Positions 7,611-14,242 of a stretch of 43,029 nt of DNA are shown one piece after another. A model generated the notes under the pieces. That model had not been told where the DNA came from, made no database searches, and saw only the letters and a program-made list of their open reading frames with translations. The translations under genes were made by a program, and so were the position numbers. Every line of letters begins with the position of its first letter. The stretch's first letter is position 1. The stretch comes from an archaeon (GTDB taxonomy: Archaea; Nanobdellota; Nanobdellia; SCGC-AAA011-G17; GW2011-AR17). Location: positions 1 to 43,029 of the forward strand of contig JABHYY010000023.1 of the NCBI GenBank assembly GCA_018653605.1. Reading direction: 5' to 3'.

Positions 7611-8174
7611 CTAAGAAACATCACTACAAGTAGGCATAACAAAAGGAGGAGTTTCAATTATTCCTTCATCTTGGAGTCCTCTTTTTTTTCTTTCTAATTC
7701 TCTTACTCTTTCTTCAAGATCTTCTTGAGAAAGATCTAAATTTACTAATGCAGACATTATGTCTACTGGGATTACAAAGTATAATTCAGGGAAACTAGGA
7801 ATAGCATAAGAGCTTCCATGTTGAAAATCTAAAGGATTTCTTTGTATATCTAAAACAAAATTTAATGCTGTAGGATATATATTAACAGAAAAATCATCAG
7901 TAAGATCATATCTCACACCTGTTTCTCCATTCTTAACAATTCCTCCTGCATCAATTCTCATTGTTCCTTCAGTTACAACTGGAATATCTTCAGGAGTTGC
8001 TAAATTTCTTATCCAAGGCCTAGTATTATCTAATGGGGTTCCATTTTCTACTGCTTCTCTTTGAAATCCTTTTTGTAAATTAATTATTTCTTGGGGATCA
8101 CGTGCAAAGATCTTATCTGCAGCATATTCACCAGCTCTTAACCATTTTTTATAGTCTAATCTGTAAAGTTCCAT
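7611..8174 (-). CDS. Hypothetical protein
   Basis: Long ORF only. Confidence 0.55.
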   Translation of the reverse strand: MELYRLDYKKWLRAGEYAADKIFARDPQEIINLQKGFQREAVENGTPLDNTRPWIRNLATPEDIPVVTEGTMRIDAGGIVKNGETGVRYDLTDDFSVNIYPTALNFVLDIQRNPLDFQHGSSYAIPSFPELYFVIPVDIMSALVNLDLSQEDLEERVRELERKKRGLQDEGIIETPPFVMPTCSDVS

Positions 8175-8219
8175 GTATAATTAAATTTTATTATCTCTTT
8201 ATAAGTCTTTCGGAAGTAA

Positions 8220-8834
8220 TTACTTAACAGTAGCAAAACTCTTCAAATCCTCCAGATTCAAAACACAAACACCAAACTCTCCTTCATAAGCTAACCGAGG
8301 ACAAGCAGTATTCACCCAAACCTCAATATCAGAAAAATCCTCCAACCCAGAAACACTATCACAAAGAAAATAATAAACTTCTTTATCACCAAAATCAAAA
8401 TCCTTACCTTGCATATAATTCTGCCACTTTTTCACAGAAACCAAAACACCAACTTTCTTAGAATGCAGGTATTTCAAATAAGCACCTTTAATTCTCTTCT
8501 CAATCTTTTCAACATCTTTCATATCCAACTCAGTAACACTATTAGTGAAAGGGTTTGCCAAAAAAACTCTTTTTCCAGTCTTCCTTGCAACTTGAATTGC
8601 ATGAAATTTACCAGAGCCAACATAAAGATAAGCATCAACATCTAAGTCCAAAGCATTCTTAACATTGCATCCAAGAACCTGCCCAGCAACAACCCAACCT
8701 TCTTTTTTTATTTTATTAACTTCATCTAAGTGCTGTACTGTAGTAACTACTCCAAGTTTACCTTTGAAATCAACCTTCTCTAGCACAGGCGCAATGTCAA
8801 CTTCAGATTTTGCAGGAATATAGACTGTTTTCAT
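8220..8834 (-). CDS. Diphthamide synthase Dph2-like protein lacking the N-terminal domain
   Basis: KLGVVTTVQHLDEVNKIKKEGWVVAGQVLGCNVKNA (second Cys domain) and FSDIEVWVNTACPRLAYEGEFGVCVLNLEDL (third Cys domain); 204 aa only. Confidence 0.8.
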   Translation of the reverse strand: MKTVYIPAKSEVDIAPVLEKVDFKGKLGVVTTVQHLDEVNKIKKEGWVVAGQVLGCNVKNALDLDVDAYLYVGSGKFHAIQVARKTGKRVFLANPFTNSVTELDMKDVEKIEKRIKGAYLKYLHSKKVGVLVSVKKWQNYMQGKDFDFGDKEVYYFLCDSVSGLEDFSDIEVWVNTACPRLAYEGEFGVCVLNLEDLKSFATVK

Positions 8835-8887
8835 AGTTTTGAAGAATAATGTAGGGTATAAAAAGCTTTCTTAGCATGGCCAAAAGG

Positions 8888-8895
8888 TTTATATA
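8888..8895 (+). promoter_or_regulatory. Probable TATA box of the interrupted tRNA-iMet gene
   Basis: TTTATATA 24-31 nt upstream of mature tRNA position 1. Confidence 0.55.
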
Positions 8896-8949
8896 GGCAG
8901 GTTTTTTACAGTTAGCATAGCGGGGTAGGACAGTCAGGAGTGTCCGTCG

Positions 8950-8980
8950 AAACATTGAAAGTAATTTTGATGTTGCGGAA
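8950..8980 (+). other. tRNA-iMet intron 1 (position 29/30, 31 nt)
   Basis: Inner 10-bp helix AACATTGAAA-GTAA-TTTTGATGTT; central 4-bp helix CCGT(8944-8947)/GCGG(8975-8978); bulges CG|A and AA|G. Confidence 0.85.
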
Positions 8981-8988
8981 GGCTCATA

Positions 8989-9008
8989 AAGGATTCGTTC
9001 CTAGAGAC
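8989..9008 (+). other. tRNA-iMet intron 2 (canonical position 37/38, 20 nt)
   Basis: Inner helix AGGA-TTCGT-TCCT; central helix CTCA/AGAG with one A.A mismatch; bulges TA|A and AC|A. Confidence 0.8.
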
Positions 9009-9014
9009 ACCCGG

Positions 9015-9045
9015 AAAAGAGTAGTTTTGATTGCTCTTTGGTTAT
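9015..9045 (+). other. tRNA-iMet intron 3 (position about 43/44, 31 nt; exact boundary least certain)
   Basis: Inner 9-bp helix AAAGAGTAG-TTTTGA-TTGCTCTTT; central helix ACCC/GGTT with one C.U mismatch; bulges GG|A and AT|A. Confidence 0.7.
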
Positions 9046-9055
9046 AGGTCGTTGG

Positions 9056-9086
9056 AAGTAGCTTTCGTAAGGAAATTACTGGCGAA
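9056..9086 (+). other. tRNA-iMet intron 4 (position 53/54, 31 nt)
   Basis: Inner helix AGTAGCTTTC-GTAA-GGAAATTACT (one mismatch); central helix CGTT(9050-9053)/GGCG(9081-9084); bulges GG|A and AA|T; removal restores GTTGG TTCAAAT CCAAC. Confidence 0.85.
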
Positions 9087-9107
9087 TTCAAATCCAACCC
9101 CCGCTAT

Positions 9108-9863
9108 TTATATTTTTTTAAACAGATTTTTATTATCAATATTTCTTGCAACCCATAATTTGAACTTTTGTTTATGTTTTGGATGTCTTAATTTAATAAT
9201 ATCTACAAACTTCAATAATTGCAAATGTCCACAAATTTCAAATCTATGTCTTATAGTATAACCTAATTCCACTCTATCATCTTTAGATTTGACTTTGAGA
9301 ATATTGGTTGTTCTTAGATCTTTTGAACTAAGAGAATCATAAACTTCTTCAGTAAGTGTTCTACCTTTAAAACAGCAGGCCAAAACAGGATAATAATATT
9401 TTTCTTTATATCTTTTTTTCAAGCAAAAACCAAAATCTGTATCAACAAGACCTTGAATAAAATGATGTTTAAGAGTTTTATTTTGTTCTATTATTTGAGG
9501 TATAGATAAATCTAAAGGTTTTCTTCCAGAAGGCAAACCAATACATCCAGTAAGATAATTACTAATAGCTTTCGAACCAAAATTAAAACCATAAGTTCCA
9601 CCTGACATGTGTTTCATAATAGGTTCAATATTGAAAAGCCTCTTCATCAATTTTCTAATATTAACATCATAAAATTCAATCTCATCTGCAGGATTACCTC
9701 CACAGTTTAATACATATTTATGTTTTTTATCTCGATTTCCAGCAATGTGACCATCACCAGCCATTACACCACAGAAATAAGCTACTTCAGGAGTAATCTC
9801 CTTAGGCAATCTTATTCCTCTTTTTTGATCATAATAACTTAGTTTTATTTCATCTGCTTCCAT
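9108..9863 (-). CDS. Free-standing LAGLIDADG-family homing endonuclease
   Basis: EVAYFCGVMAGDGHIAG and HHFIQGLVDTDFGFCL: two LAGLIDADG-type motifs in a 251-aa protein. Confidence 0.85.
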   Translation of the reverse strand: MEADEIKLSYYDQKRGIRLPKEITPEVAYFCGVMAGDGHIAGNRDKKHKYVLNCGGNPADEIEFYDVNIRKLMKRLFNIEPIMKHMSGGTYGFNFGSKAISNYLTGCIGLPSGRKPLDLSIPQIIEQNKTLKHHFIQGLVDTDFGFCLKKRYKEKYYYPVLACCFKGRTLTEEVYDSLSSKDLRTTNILKVKSKDDRVELGYTIRHRFEICGHLQLLKFVDIIKLRHPKHKQKFKLWVARNIDNKNLFKKI

Positions 9864-9885
9864 ACTCCTACCTAAGACAAATTAC

Positions 9886-9923
9886 TTTAAAAGCTCTGCG
9901 CGCACACATGTCACATGTCACTC
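9886..9923 (-). promoter_or_regulatory. Shared promoter element, copy A (upstream of LAGLIDADG gene)
   Basis: Minus strand GAGTGACATGTGACATGTGTGCGCGCAGAGCTTTTAAA; 35/38 identical to 31867..31904. Confidence 0.8.
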
Positions 9924-9931
9924 AACTGCAA

Positions 9932-9951
9932 CTACAAAATATATGTTGTAG
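9932..9951. repeat. Palindrome upstream of element A
   Basis: CTACAAAATATATGTTGTAG; similar sequence CTAAAATATATGTTCTAC at 31841-31858 in the same position relative to element B. Confidence 0.6.
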
Positions 9952-10042
9952 AATAAGATTAAACAATTCTAAGCACAGCAGTCCACACAAACCAAAACCC
10001 TACACAAAACATTATTAAACAACAAAGACCAATAAATTAACA

Positions 10043-11062
10043 ATGAAAAAACTAATCTTAATATTAGCAATTTTATTTATCACAAGCTGCGCAGTTGAAC
10101 AAGCATATCAAGAACCATTGTATTTCAATGTAATTTTCCACAATGAAGAAGATGTTGGTAGCTGCACAAACCCAAAAGCAGCAACTCCAGACTACGATGG
10201 TAACCAAGAACTACTTCTACACTTCACAAATGCTTTCAGAGAGTTTGGCGAAATGGCGCAAGGACATGGAGTGAAAATCAACTTTGGCTCAGACTGGACA
10301 TTCTCAAATGGCGTTGAAAACTTTGACCCCACTTTTTACACAGACATGGAAGCAATGGGCCATGAGATAGACGCACACGCACACCAATCTTGTATCTTAT
10401 ACCATGAAGTAAGAGAAGACATTATCGACGCAGGTGGAACACCAACCACAGTTGCATCAGGTATGGAAGAAACTAACATCCAGGAACAGATGGAATACTT
10501 TGACAACTATCCTAATGAATTTGAAATATTTTGGGGAGTTGCACAAGCAGGCCATGGTGAGGGTGAAGAAATTTCTAGCTGGGTATGGCGACCATCAAGA
10601 GATAATTGGTTAGAGCACGATCCAGATGGTGACTACATTCACATTGGCCATGGTGAACAAGTGAATAGTATTAATTACATTCAAGAAGCAATTGAAAACA
10701 GATATGATGATAGAGTCAACACTTACTCAGTTTTTATTGGAACCTCACATTTTTTAGCTTCAAAAGACACTCCAGGCATTCCTAAAGACTGGACAGCAAC
10801 AATTGATGATGAAAGTCATTGGGAAAATAGGATAGAATGGTGGGATGACTTTTTTACAGAGGTTGACAATTTAGAAAACCTTGAATACGCATCTTTAACA
10901 GAAGTAGCAGAAATTTTTGAACAAAATGAAGACAACCTAAACTTTGACTATGACACAGAAAACCATCCAAGATCAGATGGTTCAATGGCAGCAAAAAATG
11001 AAAAAGCAGGCTACCCATTAACAGGTTTTGTCACAAGAAAAACCAAAACCCTTATTAAATAA
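10043..11062 (+). CDS. Secreted lipoprotein, polysaccharide-deacetylase (NodB)-like
   Basis: Lipobox-like MKKLILILAILFITSC; MGHEIDAHAHQS resembles the NodB His motif. Confidence 0.6.
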   Translation: MKKLILILAILFITSCAVEQAYQEPLYFNVIFHNEEDVGSCTNPKAATPDYDGNQELLLHFTNAFREFGEMAQGHGVKINFGSDWTFSNGVENFDPTFYTDMEAMGHEIDAHAHQSCILYHEVREDIIDAGGTPTTVASGMEETNIQEQMEYFDNYPNEFEIFWGVAQAGHGEGEEISSWVWRPSRDNWLEHDPDGDYIHIGHGEQVNSINYIQEAIENRYDDRVNTYSVFIGTSHFLASKDTPGIPKDWTATIDDESHWENRIEWWDDFFTEVDNLENLEYASLTEVAEIFEQNEDNLNFDYDTENHPRSDGSMAAKNEKAGYPLTGFVTRKTKTLIK

Positions 11063-11080: not shown

Positions 11081-14000
11081 ATGAAAGGGAGGTTAACAGT
11101 TCTTATAGCAATAATACTAATTTTAGCAATAACTCCAATTCTAACAAATGATACAACTGTAGACCCTATAATCACTCAAACTTTAGAAAAAGAAGAAACA
11201 GTTCAAGTTGTTATTCAATACATTGAAGAGCCAGAAGAACCAACCTTTATTGAAACTCTTTTAACAGATGAAATCGAACAAGAAAACATTAATGAAGAAT
11301 TCTATTCAGCAGAAATAACTGAAGACCAACTTGAAGACTTATTAGAAGATCCAAATGTTCAAACAATTTCAGAAGACCCAGTTGCTTCAGTTCACTTATC
11401 AACCTCAACACAAGTAATCAACTCAACTGTGGTTAATTCAAAACAATTCTCATCAACAAACCTAACAGGCTTAGGACAAAGTGTTTGTGTTATTGACACA
11501 GGAGTAAACTCATCACACCCTGGTTTGAAAGGAAGAATCATTGCAGAAAAATGTTTTTGTGACATCACAGACTATGGTTCAGGTGGTTGTTGCTCAGATA
11601 ATACAAATGAAAACAGTGATGCAGAAGATGACTACAGGCACGGTACACATGTTGCAGGAATCATTGCATCCAATGACACAACTTACACAGGAGTTGCACC
11701 AGAAGCATACATAGTCTCAGTAAAAGTTACAAACTCTTCAGGCAATGCACTTTACTCAGACATCACACAAGGTATTGACTGGTGTAGAACAAATGCAGCA
11801 ACTTACAACATAACAGCAATCTCAATCAGTCTAGGAGGGGGAGCATACTCAGCACATTGCGATGCAACATTTGCAGGAATAGGATTAACAGGAGCAGTAG
11901 ACAATGCATACAACAACAACGTTTCAGTTGTAATCTCAACAGGAAATGATTATTCAACATCAAACATTGGATCACCATCATGTATAGAAAATGCAATTGC
12001 AGTATCTTCAACAACAAAACTAGATACAGTATCAAGTTTTTCAAATAGGAATTCAATAACTGACATGTTCGCACCAGGTGGAACCAGCACAGGAACAGGT
12101 GCATGTCCAAATGCAAACTACATCTGTTCAACACAATGGACAAGTGGATTCATTGGCTACTCAGGAACTTCAATGTCAGCACCACATGTAGCAGGAGTGA
12201 TTGCACTAATGCAACAGTATGAAAAAGATGTTGAAGGAAAACCCTTGACAGGAGATCAAGTAAACCAAACAATCACAACAAACGGTGCACTTATCGACGA
12301 CAGTGGAGGTTCAGGATACAGTTTTTATAGGCTAGACGCACTAAAATCCTTAATCGCAATTGATAATTTACAACCAGAAATACTCAACCCTAACACAACA
12401 CTACAAACATTCTACTTTTACAACAACATAACTTTCATTGCAAATGTTTCAGATATTAATTTAGACACAGTTTGGATAGAAGGAAATTGGTCTGGCTCAT
12501 TAGAAAACACAACTTTAACAAATACAGTAGATGCCCAATACAATTTCACATTAGACAATGGGAATTATTCTAACAGTGACACCTTCTCTTGGAGAATACA
12601 TGCAAATGATTCAAACAACAATATCAACTCAACAGATTTTTACACAATAACAATAGCAGGAAACCCAACAGTAACACTAAACTCACCAGCAGATGGTTCA
12701 ATGACAAACAATGCAACAGTATATTTTAATTTCACAGCAACAGATGAATTAGATTCTTTGATAAACTGTTCATTATACCTTGACTCCATATCAAACATTA
12801 CAAACACAACTGTAAACAATGGTACTTCAACAATATTTGAACTTGATTTAAACAGTTCAGACCACACTTGGTTTGTACAATGTACAGATTCAAACAACTT
12901 AACAACCAATTCCTCGTCGAGAACATTAACAGTTGACACTTTATCACCTTACTTCACAGCAGAAAACTTTACTTCAATAATTGAACTTGGTGCAAACTGG
13001 AGTTACATTGTAAACATTACAAACTCACACTTAAGTTATGCAAACTTTTCTTTTGATTCTTCAAATGTAACAATGTCAAATGTTACAGACATATTTAACA
13101 GAACTTTCCAGGTTTTGGATAATGGGAGTCAGGCTTTTGTAGTGTATGCATATGACACAGCAGGCAATTTAAATTCAACAAATAACACTTTCATTGTAAA
13201 TGATTCAATTTCAGGTGTAAGGATAATGAACTTTAATTACAATTCAACTGTTGCACAAGATTCAAACCAAACAGTTACAACTTATTTACTAAACTCTTTC
13301 CCAATAACAGAAGCTTACATAACATACAATGGAACAAACTATAATTTCACTAACAACACTCACTACAACTTTACAACAACCTTTTCAGTTTCTGCATGTG
13401 GTGACTACAACTTTACAATGTTCACAAATGACACTCAAGGTGAAAATAAATCTCAATTTACAAACTTTTCAATAAACTTTTGCTGTGGAAATGGTATTCC
13501 TGAAGGTGATGAAGATTGCAACACATGTCCAGGAGATACTAGTGAGTGTGATGAACCAGCAACAACTAGTGGTGGTGGAGGAGGGGGAGGTGGTTCAGGC
13601 ACTTCAGAGGAAAGTACAAAAGAAACAATAAAAATTTCATCAGCATCACCAGATGATCCAATTGAATTCAACATTTACAATACAATATTACCAATCAACA
13701 AATTAGAAGTGTTAGTAGAAAGACAAGTTGAAAACATTAAAGTTACAGCAGAAGTACTGGATGAGAAACCATCAGAAACAGTAAACCCTCAAGGTGAAGT
13801 TTACAAATTCCTAGAGATCTACACAACAAACCTTAATGAAGAAGATATTGAGCAAGCAGAGATACAATTTTTCATCTCAAGCACTTGGCTTAACAACAAA
13901 GATAAAGACTCTGTAATCCTACAGAGATACAACAGAGGTTGGGAACAACTACCAACAGAATACATAAAACTTTACCAAGACAACTATTATTTCAAAGCAG

Positions 14001-14242
14001 AAACAGAAGGTTTTTCATACTTTGTAATCACAGCAATTGAAGAAGAAGAAACTATTGAAGAAGAGATAACAGCACAAGCAGTTGAGGAAGTTGTAGAAGA
14101 TGTTCCACAATACATTGCACCAGCACCAGAACAAGAAATTGAAGAGTTCTACTTCACACCCTTTATAATGAGCATAGGAATAATTATAACCCTAGCAGTT
14201 ATAATAGTAGCACTTGCATGGAGAAAGAAATGGAAAATATAG
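11081..14242 (+). CDS. Secreted subtilisin-like serine protease (S8) with Ig-like repeats, Gly linker, PGF-pre-PGF-like domain and C-terminal TM helix
   Basis: Catalytic triad GQSVCVIDTGVNSSHPGL / DDYRHGTHVAGI / GYSGTSMSAPHVAGV; many NxS/T sequons; FTPFIMSIGIIITLAVIIVALAWRKK. Confidence 0.95.
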   Translation: MKGRLTVLIAIILILAITPILTNDTTVDPIITQTLEKEETVQVVIQYIEEPEEPTFIETLLTDEIEQENINEEFYSAEITEDQLEDLLEDPNVQTISEDPVASVHLSTSTQVINSTVVNSKQFSSTNLTGLGQSVCVIDTGVNSSHPGLKGRIIAEKCFCDITDYGSGGCCSDNTNENSDAEDDYRHGTHVAGIIASNDTTYTGVAPEAYIVSVKVTNSSGNALYSDITQGIDWCRTNAATYNITAISISLGGGAYSAHCDATFAGIGLTGAVDNAYNNNVSVVISTGNDYSTSNIGSPSCIENAIAVSSTTKLDTVSSFSNRNSITDMFAPGGTSTGTGACPNANYICSTQWTSGFIGYSGTSMSAPHVAGVIALMQQYEKDVEGKPLTGDQVNQTITTNGALIDDSGGSGYSFYRLDALKSLIAIDNLQPEILNPNTTLQTFYFYNNITFIANVSDINLDTVWIEGNWSGSLENTTLTNTVDAQYNFTLDNGNYSNSDTFSWRIHANDSNNNINSTDFYTITIAGNPTVTLNSPADGSMTNNATVYFNFTATDELDSLINCSLYLDSISNITNTTVNNGTSTIFELDLNSSDHTWFVQCTDSNNLTTNSSSRTLTVDTLSPYFTAENFTSIIELGANWSYIVNITNSHLSYANFSFDSSNVTMSNVTDIFNRTFQVLDNGSQAFVVYAYDTAGNLNSTNNTFIVNDSISGVRIMNFNYNSTVAQDSNQTVTTYLLNSFPITEAYITYNGTNYNFTNNTHYNFTTTFSVSACGDYNFTMFTNDTQGENKSQFTNFSINFCCGNGIPEGDEDCNTCPGDTSECDEPATTSGGGGGGGGSGTSEESTKETIKISSASPDDPIEFNIYNTILPINKLEVLVERQVENIKVTAEVLDEKPSETVNPQGEVYKFLEIYTTNLNEEDIEQAEIQFFISSTWLNNKDKDSVILQRYNRGWEQLPTEYIKLYQDNYYFKAETEGFSYFVITAIEEEETIEEEITAQAVEEVVEDVPQYIAPAPEQEIEEFYFTPFIMSIGIIITLAVIIVALAWRKKWKI

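Follow-up and report, generated by a model that had tools for sequence, protein, structure and literature searches.

A free-standing LAGLIDADG gene beside a four-intron archaeal tRNA-iMet gene suggests joint spread of enzyme and introns

Why does a free-standing gene of the LAGLIDADG type lie next to an archaeal tRNA gene that is itself interrupted four times? The gain and spread of archaeal tRNA introns is an old open question, and the locus considered here bears on it. It lies in a stretch of 43,029 nucleotides (the window), which is one 43-kb contig of a 961-kb genome in 42 contigs, and comprises the following features.

8919-9106, plus strand: tRNA-iMet(CAU) gene with four introns, 188 nt, mature length 75 nt, recognised by acceptor pairing, the iMet D-loop AGGAGTG and the cloverleaf obtained after intron removal
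8950-8980, plus strand: intron A, 31 nt, position 29/30 in the anticodon stem; boundaries inferred from the cloverleaf, BHB-like fold (z = -3.3)
8989-9008, plus strand: intron B, 20 nt, canonical position 37/38; boundary inferred
9015-9045, plus strand: intron C, 31 nt, variable loop at about 45/46; one of the two introns (C or D) that accompany every close enzyme homologue
9056-9086, plus strand: intron D, 31 nt, T arm at 53/54; the other of these two introns
9108-9863, minus strand: free-standing LAGLIDADG homing-endonuclease-like gene, 251 aa, ATG start, intact
9744-9782, minus strand: first LAGLIDADG motif, residues 28-40, AYFCGVMAGDGHI; D37 invariant in family alignments
9429-9461, minus strand: second LAGLIDADG motif, FIQGLVDTDFG, residues 135-145; D141 and D143 invariant in family alignments
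9885-9906, minus strand: the gene's own promoter region, with TATA-like CTTTTAAAG and, upstream of it, TGTGCGCGCAGAGCTT at 9891-9906

Once the introns of 31, 20, 31 and 31 nt are removed, the remaining 75-nt tRNA-iMet folds into a complete cloverleaf (-31.4 kcal/mol). The exact intron boundaries are inferred and could shift by one or two bases; judged by minimum energy alone, the junctions of A and D adopt a BHB-like form, and B and C are less clear. A first-pass annotation of this DNA had described a tRNA with four introns, each too small to hold an endonuclease ORF, and an endonuclease gene convergent with the tRNA 3' end. All three statements are borne out, as the introns measure 20-31 nt and a single nucleotide separates the end of the tRNA (9106) from the stop codon (9108). 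ARAGORN did not detect this tRNA in the window because of its introns. A group I intron with an encoded endonuclease can be ruled out, given the intron lengths and an Rfam scan of 8000-10500 that returned no group I intron and no other convincing RNA. The neighbours of the pair are an ORF of 204 aa belonging to a diphthamide-synthesis family (8220-8834, minus strand) and a subtilase-family protein of 1053 aa (11081-14242, plus strand), and no integrase-like gene was recognised among the neighbours of the tRNA.

The identity of the adjacent protein emerges from its family. Searched alone, the window protein had no Pfam match at E<=1, and a weak NCBIfam match was judged spurious. Pfam LAGLIDADG_3 is matched by 25 of the 26 aligned family members, however, and G36/D37 and D141/D143 are unchanged in all 26. 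A PDB search with the family profile found I-DmoI (4e-9), and the AlphaFold model (pLDDT 91.3) matched I-Tsp061I, PI-PfuI, I-AniI and I-SceI with probability 1.00. By its predicted fold and its intact catalytic residues the gene product is a LAGLIDADG homing-endonuclease-like protein, and site-specific DNA cleavage is inferred from these properties. Some LAGLIDADG proteins, such as I-AniI and bI3, act as maturases, and the presence of I-AniI among the fold neighbours of the model leaves room for a protein that is no longer a nuclease but serves the introns of the neighbouring tRNA as a maturase or RNA-binding factor. Such a role is scarcely credible: for archaeal BHB introns the splicing endonuclease alone is sufficient, most iMets that contain C or D occur without the protein, and the aspartates of both motifs are invariant.

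The upstream sequence TGTGCGCGCAGAGCTT has exactly two copies in the genome, one in the window (9891-9906, minus strand) and one on contig C31 of G000 (74214-74229, minus strand). Each copy immediately precedes a LAGLIDADG gene (the two genes share only 28% identity), and a similar sequence precedes the genes of G059, G011 and L015. A common promoter or a site for a regulator is one possibility.

Is the enzyme's position beside tRNA-iMet peculiar to the window? Close homologues were set apart by a gap in score (at least 250 bits, with the next group at no more than 195 bits). They form one clade in the enzyme tree (SH-aLRT 91) and occur in 18 of 378 genomes of the class; in addition, G022 has a broken gene, and a named genome collection of Woesearchaeota, Nanoarchaeota and Aenigmatarchaeota assemblies adds further relatives. 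Two loci are truncated by a contig edge. In all 30 loci whose flanks are long enough, drawn from many archaeal families, the enzyme gene lies beside a tRNA-iMet. The two genes are mostly arranged tail to tail; the exceptions are G222 and L128, where the enzyme gene follows the tRNA 3' end on the same strand, and G312, where it lies 5' of the tRNA. This adjacency is not due to chance, because across 42 family loci 37 tRNAs were found within 110 bp of the enzyme gene and only six in the remaining approximately 1.4 kb on either side. These counts rest on a purpose-written tRNA motif finder, which gave 107 matches on the family-locus sequences and one on reversed sequence. Relatives of the enzyme were sought in viral contigs of IMG/VR as well, and none was found there. 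In several loci (L004, 2165-2208; L011; and others) the C-terminal codons of the enzyme run antisense through the 3' end of the tRNA or its T-arm intron.

The tRNA-iMets beside these enzymes also have their introns in common. All 30 are interrupted by an intron either in the variable loop (45-48) or in the T arm (53/54), the former being offset by one or two bases in G312, L138 and L139, and no carrier other than the window clearly has both C and D. For a comparison with genomes lacking the enzyme, patterns of the D arm and T arm, for which reversed controls were almost empty, served to find iMet genes, and introns were read directly from the sequence in 55 genomes of the order. Within the order, C or D is present in all 12 carriers versus 18 of 43 non-carriers (Fisher p = 2.0e-4), and the association persists when stratified by family (p = 9e-5). 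An automated intron parser found C or D in 21/21 carriers as opposed to 14/40 non-carriers (p = 1.9e-7); this test was pooled, with carriers sampled more widely than non-carriers, and nine loci beyond the reach of the parser were read by eye. At the level of the class, none of the 18 carriers has an intronless iMet, compared with about 120 of 278 other genomes (p = 6e-5). Among the close homologues, every iMet with intron A or B also has C or D. What counts is apparently an intron in the variable loop or T arm, as opposed to one at 29/30 or 37/38.

We consider collaborative (trans) homing of the free-standing enzyme with the tRNA introns to be the probable explanation, with cleavage, the exact target, co-transfer and splicing all inferred. 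The enzyme would be a monomeric, free-standing LAGLIDADG homing endonuclease whose target lies in the intronless tRNA-iMet gene, approximately within positions 45-57 (variable loop to T loop). An intron at 45/46 or 53/54 would break this target, and an allele consisting of the enzyme gene and an intron-bearing iMet would thus be immune. On meeting an intronless iMet gene, such an allele would supply the enzyme that cuts the intronless copy, and repair from the intron-bearing copy would carry over the intron or introns jointly with the remainder of the tRNA and the neighbouring enzyme gene. The host tRNA-splicing endonuclease would later remove the introns at the RNA level. Intron and enzyme gene would then move as a single unit, even though the gene could by no means fit inside so short an intron. 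The geometry of the locus gives the intron its role in this scheme: tail-to-tail insertion leaves the body of the tRNA intact, so only an intron could break an internal target in a functional gene.

If enzyme and introns move, sister genomes should retain empty sites, and four syntenic contrasts reveal them. In each, the enzyme gene lies between iMet and the neighbour that directly follows iMet in relatives. G024 and G079 are occupied and have C, as against the empty, intronless sites of G052 and G068; G078 is occupied with D, as against G040, empty and intronless; G093 is occupied with D, as against G098 (intronless) and G058 (A and B only); and G069 is occupied with D, as against G053 (intronless) and G025 (A, B and C). 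Patchy presence at one conserved site meets the mobility criterion for a homing endonuclease. Between iMet and the syntenic neighbour there is a LAGLIDADG gene only, with no integrase gene. An integrase-driven element in a tRNA att site was ranked lower.

The first-pass annotation had proposed two comparisons, and both came out in favour of a link. A lack of correlation between enzyme and iMet introns across relatives would have refuted it, whereas the correlation is strong (12/12 versus 18/43); and the syntenic loci of relatives without the enzyme are intronless for the most part, whereas occupied ones carry C or D. The same annotation had offered action in trans, protecting or spreading the introns, and simple integration at the tRNA as alternatives. 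The former is favoured by the correlation, with cleavage remaining an inference, and the latter is also literally true, in that the tRNA is the insertion site.

The association by itself could also arise if the target spanned the 3' boundary of the tRNA or its flank. Insertion of the gene would then destroy the target, as in ordinary homing into intronless sites, and the introns would be co-converted passengers. At most loci only a few bases do separate the gene from the tRNA 3' end, and other family members adjoin intronless tRNAs, for example a 75-nt tRNA-Ile in G116. Passengers should be lost by some carriers, however, and the enzyme tree tells otherwise. The C/D state changes at least seven times on this tree, three of the changes being forced by well-supported branches, and sister enzymes differ in their intron (L118 D versus L119 C, L123 D versus L128 C, L140 C versus L141 D). 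Despite these switches one of the two introns is always present, in 30 of 30 loci, and the place of the enzyme is constant. Switching with one intron always kept fits the need to break a shared internal target and is hard to reconcile with passengers. Gene geometry also varies (3' convergent, 3' on the same strand, or 5') but intron presence does not. Together with the position of the two stubs described below, which start inside the tRNA at 53 and 57 and not at its 3' end, this makes a boundary target unlikely, though not negligible.

The stubs are direct repeats of the iMet 3' end found beyond the enzyme gene. In L122 the repeat matches in 20 of 21 nt from position 53, and in L138 in 17 of 17 nt from position 57; no shuffle reached an equal score. 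Neither stub has the intron (D or 59/60) that its functional counterpart contains. Most simply, this can be read as a cut in the T arm of an intronless iMet, repair of its 5' side from an intron-bearing donor along with the enzyme gene, and joining of the far end to what was left of the 3' part. Stub starts and intron sites converge on positions 45-57. A stub or tRNA 3'-end direct repeat at the far end was seen in only two of 24 testable loci, and this scarcity counts against collaborative homing, as do the three loci whose genes are not tail to tail.

These two loci also bear on whether the introns arose separately, as a defence of the host or of the element that selection favours wherever the enzyme occurs, in which case gene and intron would not be one moving unit. 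That tRNA disruption blocks integrating elements is a published idea (Randau and Soll, as discussed in PMC3293823), and the C/D switches between sister enzymes would fit repeated independent protection. Pure defence needs no tight linkage, however, and in L122 and L138 an intronless stub accompanies an intron-bearing functional tRNA beside the enzyme, which suggests joint arrival of intron and gene. We therefore regard separate defence as improbable, and collaborative homing remains the preferred reading.

Many iMets carry C or D introns without the enzyme, a further point against collaborative homing. They are explicable by gain followed by decay and loss of the enzyme gene, a course that the broken gene of G022 and a fragment in G071 fit but that is mostly unproven. 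A search for decayed enzymes beside intron-bearing, enzyme-free iMets gave a single clear fragment, in G071 (E=8e-6), a single weak one, in G002 (E=0.006), and no remnant beside most of these iMets, so loss directly explains few cases.

Several known systems share parts of this arrangement. In the collaborative homing of phages, a free-standing endonuclease targets the site at which a neighbouring group I intron without an ORF is inserted, as in cyanophage psbA and T7-like phages (PMC3984707, PMC10448857). The window likewise combines a free-standing enzyme gene, 1 nt outside the tRNA, with adjoining ORF-less introns; the target, inferred only indirectly, would coincide with the intron sites, and both partners would travel together. 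It differs in that an archaeal chromosome, a tRNA gene and a LAGLIDADG enzyme are involved, in that either of two intron positions serves, and in that the introns are small (20-31 nt) and protein-spliced, unlike the self-splicing group I introns of phages. With I-DmoI and I-Tsp061I, enzymes of archaeal rRNA introns, the window protein shares fold, motif, archaeal host and a connection to intron mobility, but those enzymes are encoded inside the intron and the window gene outside it. Archaeal group I introns with LAGLIDADG genes, some of them in Woesearchaeota, involve similar hosts and the same enzyme family, but all 39 are in rRNA genes, with the enzymes inside large ribozyme introns (PMC6125680). 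SegB of phage T4 is a free-standing homing endonuclease among tRNA genes that drives inheritance of a tRNA region, but it belongs to the GIY-YIG family, has an intergenic target and is associated with no introns (PMC2988022). A single Caldiarchaeum tRNA-Thr locus combines intron gain with a neighbouring 813-bp ORF and a direct repeat formed by a tRNA fragment; it was, however, interpreted as integration of a pNOB8-type plasmid (PMC3293823). That 2012 study noted that a link of tRNA introns to integrating elements had been proposed, without direct evidence before its own single locus (PMC3293823). A literature search, from which subscription journals were mostly missing, turned up no account of homing by archaeal tRNA introns and none of LAGLIDADG genes next to tRNAs in archaea. 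Thus, phage collaborative homing and plasmid-tied intron gain at one archaeal tRNA locus are known, and we found no description of a LAGLIDADG-tRNA intron pairing.

The observations suggest that enzyme and introns spread together, and they define a coherent and testable system of one enzyme clade, one tRNA gene, two intron positions, empty sister sites and cut stubs. Collaborative homing predicts the target to about 20 bp. Alleles that are intronless, or that have introns at 29/30 and 37/38 only, should be cut, and those with introns at 45/46 or 53/54 should resist. The system would also show a way for an element to exploit an intron too small for its own gene.

Less similar members of the enzyme family abut tRNA genes, too (17 of 23 within 110 bp, by the motif finder). 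The enzymes of L144, L147 and L148 lie at a tRNA-Tyr(GUA) with a canonical intron after the anticodon, which suggests enzyme clades specific to tRNA isotypes. It is conceivable, though we advance it only tentatively and would not yet rely on it, that LAGLIDADG enzymes abutting tRNA genes form a whole family in DPANN archaea, its clades specialised on single isotypes (iMet, Tyr, Ile and others), and that this family drives the spread of archaeal tRNA introns, each small BHB intron being the immunity and mobility partner of the neighbouring free-standing enzyme. If true, this would account in general for tRNA introns at non-canonical positions and for tRNAs with several introns. The genome of the window has two more LAGLIDADG genes, and each of them overlaps, on the same strand, the 5' end of a tRNA gene with an intron (L002, 1176-1294 and 1285-2211; L003, 2120-2232 and 1495-2160).

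Another group of enzymes (L017, L019, L022, L027 and L032) is located just 5' of tRNA-Ile, often between two tRNA genes. Distant LAGLIDADG genes flank iMet in five more genomes (L053, L054, L057, L061 and L084, in G096, G032, G065, G072 and G056, respectively). All five of these iMets bear introns, which in G065 and G072 are A and B only; the enzymes of the latter two perhaps have a different target.
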